Source: Ignavibacteriales bacterium CG_4_9_14_3_um_filter_30_11 (lineage in GTDB: Bacteria; Bacteroidota; Ignavibacteria; Ignavibacteriales; Ignavibacteriaceae). From it: a stretch of DNA of 35,944 bases. This document shows positions 21,274 through 22,711 of this stretch, piece after piece; position 1 is the first letter of the stretch, and the number at the start of each line of letters is the position of its first letter. Under the pieces are notes generated by a model that was not told the origin of the DNA, searched no databases, and saw nothing but the letters and a program-made list of their open reading frames with translations. The DNA is taken from positions 1 through 35,944 of the forward strand of contig PFVA01000043.1 of NCBI GenBank assembly GCA_002790365.1. Direction: 5' to 3'. Both the position numbers and the translations under genes were made by a program.

Positions 21274-21855
21274 ATGATTGGATTTTTAACAGGAAAAAAA
21301 ATTTCTTTAAAACCGACACATCTGCTTTTGGATGTAAACGGAGTTGGTTATTCAATTAAAATATCTTTGACTACTTTTGAAGAAATTTCCGAAAAAGAAA
21401 TTATTTCTTTGTTTATTCACACCAATGTTAAAGAAGATTCAATTTCTCTTTTTGGATTTTTCAATGAATCTGAAAAGCAAATGTTTGAGCTGCTTATTTC
21501 CGTAAGTGGTGTCGGACCTAAAATTGCATTAAGTATATTATCCGGTATAAGAGTGGATGATCTTCGTTTTGCTTTACAGTCAGGTGATATTAGCAAAATT
21601 ATAGCAGTGCCGGGAATTGGCAAAAAAACTGCAGAAAGACTCTCTTTGGAGTTAAGGAATAAAGTAACTAATATTGCTGAACAAAAAGGTGATAAAACAA
21701 CCTCCAGCATAAGAACGGAAGCAGTTTCAGCATTAATAACGCTTGGCTATAATTTAAAACAAGCCGAAAGTTCAGTAAGAGTAATATTAGGTAAAAAACC
21801 TGATATTAATATTGAAGAGTTATTAAAAGAGGTGCTTTCATTATTGAGTAAATAG
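21274..21855 (+). CDS. ruvA: Holliday junction branch-migration subunit RuvA
   Basis: 193 residues. The N-terminal OB-fold begins MIGFLTGKKISLKPTHLLLD, with FIHTNVKEDSISLFGF. The two helix-hairpin-helix motifs follow (LISVSGVGPKIALSIL and IIAVPGIGKKTAERLSLEL). The small C-terminal domain that contacts RuvB ends at GKKPDINIEELLKEVLSLL. RuvA tetramers hold the junction open for the RuvB motor; no ruvB is in the window. It follows ruvC after a 144-base gap that contains the inverted-repeat element. Confidence 0.96.
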   Translation: MIGFLTGKKISLKPTHLLLDVNGVGYSIKISLTTFEEISEKEIISLFIHTNVKEDSISLFGFFNESEKQMFELLISVSGVGPKIALSILSGIRVDDLRFALQSGDISKIIAVPGIGKKTAERLSLELRNKVTNIAEQKGDKTTSSIRTEAVSALITLGYNLKQAESSVRVILGKKPDINIEELLKEVLSLLSK

Positions 21856-21873
21856 TTTTCTAGGGAGGGTAAT

Positions 21874-22029
21874 ATGAAATTATTTAAAATCTTGTTTTTC
21901 ATTTCATTATTTTCATTAACTACTTTAGCACAAACAAATTCAATTTCAAATATTGTTCCCAAAAATGAACGACCTCATCAGGGAATAAATGGTAAAATAC
22001 CGATAGAATTTTGTCATCGAATTATGTAA
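21874..22029 (+). pseudogene. Truncated secreted-protein gene fused to a transposase C-terminal remnant
   Basis: 51 codons with a strong Shine-Dalgarno (GGGAGG). Residues 1-19 are a textbook signal peptide (MKLFKILFFISLFSLTTLA, cleavage before Q). After about residue 29 the sequence turns into NERPHQGINGKIPIEFCHRI, which closely resembles the YNxERPHQxLxGKTPxEF end of rve-type (IS3/IS481-like) transposases. The ORF therefore looks like the 5' end of a lost secreted-protein gene, cut by an insertion sequence that later decayed. The stop is followed by about 25 noncoding bases and then the FAH-family gene. A genuine small secreted peptide is less likely. Confidence 0.55.
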
Positions 22030-22054
22030 CATATACAGGAATGACATAAGTAAT

Positions 22055-22711
22055 TTATTCCACTTTACAATTTAATTCTGCAACATCTGATATTTCAGCA
22101 AAAATATTATCCCCTTTTTTTACTTTACCAACCCCTTTTGGAGTGCCTGTAAAAATTATATCACCTTTTTCAAGTGTCATTAATGATGAGAGATATTCTA
22201 CAATTTCTGCAGGAGGAAAGATCATTTTATTTAATATTTCGTTTTGCTTTATGTCACCATTAACAGAAAGAGATATTTGTTCTTCTAAAGTTAAAGCATA
22301 ATCTTTTTTAGAAATAAAATCAGATACAACAGCTGAAGTATCAAACCCTTTGGCAATTGTCCAAGGGTGTCCTTGTTCTTTTAATTTATTTTGAACATCT
22401 CTTAAAGTCATATCCAATCCTACTCCGTATCCTGCAATAGCATTTTCAGCTTCAGAGAGATTCCCATCTTTAATTGTTTCATTTATCAACAAAACTAATT
22501 CTACTTCGTGATGCATATCATTTGAAAAAGATGGATAAACAATTTTATCACCGGAAAATATTAGAGATGAATTTGGTTTTAAAAAAACTATAGGTTTTTC
22601 TGGCACAACATTACCGAGTTCTTTAGCATGTTCAGTATAATTTCTACCAACACAAACTATTTTACCAACGGGAACTTTTTGATTTGATTTTTTAATTGTA
22701 ATGTTTTTCAT
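22055..22711 (-). CDS. Fumarylacetoacetate hydrolase family protein
   Basis: 218 residues, the short single-domain form. Metal ligands Glu69, Glu71 (HHEVELVLLINE) and Asp100 (GYGVGLDMTLRDVQ) are in place, with the nearby KGFDTSAVVSDFI and IFTGTPKGVGKVKKGD motifs. The start of the protein has KIVCVGRNYTEHAKELG, typical of acylpyruvate hydrolase / oxaloacetate decarboxylase (FAHD1-like) and HpaG-like members. The substrate cannot be fixed from sequence; cleavage of a C-C bond in a 2,4-diketo acid, or oxaloacetate handling, is the family expectation. AAGGAA lies about 11 bases before the ATG. It is the last gene of a minus-strand series after the exported 417-residue protein. Confidence 0.9.
   Translation of the reverse strand: MKNITIKKSNQKVPVGKIVCVGRNYTEHAKELGNVVPEKPIVFLKPNSSLIFSGDKIVYPSFSNDMHHEVELVLLINETIKDGNLSEAENAIAGYGVGLDMTLRDVQNKLKEQGHPWTIAKGFDTSAVVSDFISKKDYALTLEEQISLSVNGDIKQNEILNKMIFPPAEIVEYLSSLMTLEKGDIIFTGTPKGVGKVKKGDNIFAEISDVAELNCKVE

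Follow-up and report, generated by a model that had tools for sequence, protein, structure and literature searches.

A short open reading frame after ruvA that probably joins a secreted-protein start to the right end of an IS481-like element

Directly behind ruvA in contig PFVA01000043.1 of Ignavibacteriales bacterium CG_4_9_14_3_um_filter_30_11 lies a short open reading frame (ORF) that begins like a secreted protein and ends like a transposase, and the question is how these two parts came together. The window, that is the whole stretch of DNA analysed, comprises 35,944 nucleotides. The ORF (21874–22029, plus strand) begins 18 nt downstream of the stop codon of ruvA, and its product, MKLFKILFFISLFSLTTLAQTNSISNIVPKNERPHQGINGKIPIEFCHRIM, opens with a basic-hydrophobic signal peptide whose last residues are LAQ. 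An earlier note had called it a chimera with a signal peptide and a strong Shine-Dalgarno sequence, and it is present as described. We consider it very probable that this 51-residue ORF is a pseudogene that arose by fusion, an IS481-like element having inserted into a TGTCATTCC-type repeat and a subsequent deletion having joined its right end to the start of a secreted-protein gene. The sequence shows both parents, the right IS end, half a target site, synteny and the lack of orthologues in the searched genomes. The features of the locus are:

21274–21855, plus strand: ruvA, the upstream neighbour (193 aa ORF; RuvA relatives in 57 of 59 relative genomes)
21863–21869, plus strand: GGGAGGG, Shine-Dalgarno-like (from sequence and alignment; common to the congeners' secreted gene)
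21874–22029, plus strand: chimeric ORF, 51 codons plus stop (ORF listing)
21874–21922, plus strand: 5' remnant of a secreted-protein gene, signal peptide (aligns with the post-ruvA genes of genomes G001 and G004)
21923–21963, plus strand: junction zone with no clear match to either parent (21931–21963 at shuffle level against both)
21964–22011, plus strand: final codons of a transposase, probably IS481-like, NERPHQGINGKIPIEF (profile E 7e-7; DNA match to IS ends)
22007–22037, plus strand: inverted repeat at the right end of the IS (26 of 31 positions match a left-end variant of relatives)
22038–22046, plus strand: GGAATGACA, half of the TGTCATTCC target repeat (L128 and L146, both related elements, have the same flank)
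22055–22711, minus strand: downstream, convergent gene (218 aa ORF; in relatives it follows ruvA or the secreted gene), fumarylacetoacetase-like by its appearance

The head was traced to a small secreted-protein gene found directly 3' of ruvA, with the same start, in two congeners, G001 (160 aa) and G004 (168 aa), which agrees with the origin suggested in the earlier note. GGAGGGTAA and the start are common to the window ORF and to both of these genes, and the ribosome-binding site and signal peptide (21864 to about 21922) match the beginning of the congeners' gene. In a DNA alignment of window positions 21864–21913 with G001, 43 of 51 columns are identical. Local DNA scores of the head against the post-ruvA region were 60 for G001 and 33 for G004, neither being reached by any of 500 shuffles, which preserved base composition only. 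The window ORF therefore has the start, the signal peptide and the position after ruvA of the congeners' secreted protein; the mature domain of that protein, of about 140 residues, is absent from the window and was not found in the window's own genome, nor was a full secreted gene. Since this genome is 76% complete and in 269 contigs, the sequenced part may simply lack an intact copy of the secreted gene or of the IS. The gene order in G004 is ruvA, secreted gene and fumarylacetoacetase-like gene, as in the window's flanks, and a fumarylacetoacetase-like ORF starts within 900 nt downstream at 13 of 25 ruvA loci, the window included (30 loci were read, and a script placed ruvA in 25). SprA or another secreted protein had been expected at this position; the gene does encode a small secreted protein, but it is not sprA, which was not encountered, and has no Pfam family (no match for G004, one sub-threshold match with E 0.1 for G001). 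Relatives of the protein at E ≤0.01 occur in 6 of 80 family genomes.

In G001 (contig C332, L010:2609-2743), a second copy of the RuvA C-terminus lies beyond the secreted gene; it is 43% identical to the window's RuvA (E 3e-5) and has one internal stop. The arrangement looks as if an incoming ruvA and secreted gene had interrupted a ruvA already present. At about 2780–2930 of L010, and 3' of ruvA in L018, a short leader-like ORF rich in Met, Cys and Thr, possibly an attenuator, stands before a gene that resembles homoserine dehydrogenase.

Searched as a bare peptide, the ORF gave no meaningful match in Pfam, the PDB or plasmids (tblastn), and its tail found only itself in its own genome. Among 80 family genomes the bare tail had seven non-self matches, one of which (L047, E 1.04) falls on a true rve tail; five others (all but L044 and L047) were set aside on account of surroundings that looked unrelated by eye. 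Genome contigs searched with a degenerate DNA pattern designed on ERPHQG..GK gave at least 119 stretches, about one being expected by chance by our own estimate. The degenerate pattern had no match in viral contigs. Translation of 80 of the ERPHQG..GK loci gave the same tail in nearly every case, some loci ending beside the match; as loci often end near it, 25 distinct C-termini and 31 left ends were readable among the matches listed. A profile built from these 25 C-termini of related transposases and run without filters on the 896 ORFs of the window returned the NERPHQGINGKIPIEF tail with an E-value of 7e-7, the next ORF having 0.23. Three full transposases of the group have rve_3 and rve domains over the cut-off, and their best NCBIfam match is IS481 (NF033577), at 199–202 bits against a curated cut-off of 224. 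At the DNA level, 21964–22037 scores 31–46 against five IS ends, and none of 200 shuffles reaches any of these scores. By the profile and the inverted-repeat match described below, codons 31–46 and the DNA that follows as far as 22037 appear to derive from the right-hand end of an element of IS481-like type, of whose transposase only 16 residues remain in the window. The rve-type transposase tail recognised in the earlier note is thus borne out by the profile, by rve/DDE relatives and by the adjoining IS end.

Left ends of the related elements, read by eye and by a motif count, start with TGTAAAGGTTAGATAATTCGGTAACA or near it, and right ends close with TTACA. Read on the minus strand, 22007–22037 agrees with one left-end variant in 26 of its 31 positions and is the best place in the window, the next place having 22/31 and the maximum of 200 shuffles being 23. 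The right inverted repeat of the remnant ends in ACA, which fits TGT..ACA ends, and the right end alone is present. An IS end had been anticipated after 22029; it lies at 22037, 8 nt beyond the stop codon, so that the last codons of the ORF are inside the terminal inverted repeat. The window holds no complete mobile element, the left end and the DDE core being absent, and neither a second DNA copy of the tail nor an intact parent IS was found in its own genome. With the left end and the second target copy gone, the insertion itself is unprovable from the window. A search of class genomes (294, E 1e-30) with a full relative yielded a single match, 38% identical, on contig C140 of the window's own genome; phylum genomes (395, E 1e-60), searched with another full relative, also yielded a single match, 62% identical. 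The C140 locus (L202:1394-2428) is an intact-looking distant relative of the group, read as having ends TGTAATTC..AGTACA and a transposase ORF that likewise enters the right inverted repeat.

Could the tail instead be a diverged, internally deleted remnant of the secreted gene, its likeness to transposases being accidental? The letters KN..H and GI.GK can be aligned by eye with the G004 protein, but the DNA of 21964–22037 scores only 18 and 21 against the secreted genes, values reached by 375 and 118 of 500 shuffles, respectively, whereas the scores against IS ends are reached by none of 200, and a terminal inverted repeat and a target half-site come next. Because the segment scores high with IS ends but no better than shuffles with the secreted genes, we reject a decayed secreted gene as the source of the tail and hold this explanation to be extremely improbable. 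Slightly more room, though still very little, must be given to an assembly artefact at the join. IS ends are frequent sites of misassembly, and the assembly is a metagenome-like draft of 269 contigs and 76% completeness; against this, the tail occurs once in the assembly, and the flanking ruvA and fumarylacetoacetase-like gene stand in the G004 order.

A functional small peptide for export, newly built from the two parts, is as improbable as the remnant explanation. The frame is open, and neither the start nor the ribosome-binding site nor the signal peptide is damaged, but the C-terminus is a transposase end running into an inverted repeat, and the ORF has no orthologue in the 80 family genomes. 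In that search 51 of the 80, its own included, gave a match at E up to 1; the best non-self match (E 0.0025) was rejected as an orthologue, being a different secreted ORF with signal-peptide-like similarity. The earlier note had named conserved 51-residue orthologues, or a tail without transposase matches, as grounds against its reading; no such orthologue was found in these family genomes, and the tail does match transposases. As for the exported 30-residue peptide that it foresaw upon expression, cleavage would leave about 32 residues, and no sign of function was found. The ORF is most likely a pseudogene.

For the fusion pseudogene that we favour, we infer the order of events, the deletion mechanism and the absence of function as follows. 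The ancestor would have had the arrangement kept in G004: ruvA, then the small gene for a secreted protein, then the fumarylacetoacetase-like gene in convergent orientation. An IS481-like element would have entered a TGTCATTCC-type palindromic repeat between the latter two genes, with its right end facing the fumarylacetoacetase-like gene. A later deletion, perhaps of the IS-adjacent type, would then have taken the left end, nearly the whole element and most of the secreted gene, joining the signal-peptide codons in frame with the last transposase codons. The deletion breakpoint falls within 21923–21963, a segment matched by neither parent. Selection need not be invoked for the frame, as one in three deletions would presumably give it. 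The idea that an insertion destroyed the secreted gene needs one correction: an insertion by itself does not suffice, and a deletion is required as well.

The IS end at 22037 abuts GGAATGACA, half of the palindromic target TGTCATTNC, and the first five bases of 22038–22046 are presumed to be what remains of the target duplication. Palindromic half-sites flank 106 of 112 readable right ends among the matches listed, a descriptive figure, since the sample is mostly Flavobacterium and Mucilaginibacter, its copies are not independent, and right ends and half-sites were recognised by regular expressions drawn up after viewing the sequences. (Of the matches, at least 119 in number, 7 had a right end that was not reached or recognised and 6 lie in other sequence.) The right flanks among the matches listed, GNAATGAC in 55 and ATTNCGA in 51, each represent one half of a TGTCATTNCGA palindromic repeat, seen in either of two orientations. 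A 5-bp target duplication is present in 22 of 24 two-ended elements among these matches, the other two having 2 and 0. TGTCATTCC itself occurs once in the window (0.22 expected), and a search of six genomes for TGTCATTCC, a spacer and GGATC gave mostly unrelated-looking matches, with 9 in the window's genome and 0 in the reversed control. We regard it as rather likely that the scar stems from one group of IS481-like elements, present in Bacteroidota and some others, which homes on a single 5-bp position (ATTNC/GNAAT) within dispersed TGTCATTNCGA palindromes, in either orientation. Intergenic palindromes would then be the entry points of these elements, and deletions starting there would wear away the genes nearby.

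The relatives resemble the IS481 family in their best NCBIfam match, in their TGT..ACA ends and in their 5-bp duplications, which fall within the 2–15 bp (mostly 6) given for IS481 elements in the available part of PMC10045372; they differ in that the three transposases tested score below the cut-off of 224, and the window holds a remnant only. In the excerpt of PMC11708052 at hand, an IS481 element of Pseudomonas fluorescens SBW25 occupies one fixed position of REP sequences, and IS-adjacent deletions are described. The likeness to our case lies in a fixed position within dispersed palindromic repeats and in IS-linked rearrangements; host and repeat are different, and a duplication, not a deletion, was observed there. 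Insertion into REP sequences is known for the IS3, IS110, IS4, IS256 and IS5 families, and IS1397, ISKpn1, IS621, ISPpu9 and others likewise enter extragenic palindromes but belong to other transposase families; IS481 has no occurrence in the portion of text available for this source (PMC1525189). A literature search with the string GTCATTGCGAGG gave nothing on bacterial repeats, judged by titles, and one on IS481, Mucilaginibacter and insertion sequences found no paper. The locus would illustrate how an IS and a deletion can make a short in-frame chimera that could be annotated as a small secreted protein. More notable than the scar is a by-product, the fixed palindromic target of the IS481-like group, which would extend the P. 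fluorescens REP case, as far as the excerpt of PMC11708052 describes it, to other bacteria. Among the matches listed, six right ends (L085, L143, L168, L137, L190 and L198) lie outside the GNAATGAC and ATTNCGA half-sites, that of L085 being in a GCTCC repeat and that of L168 having a CCTTT duplication.
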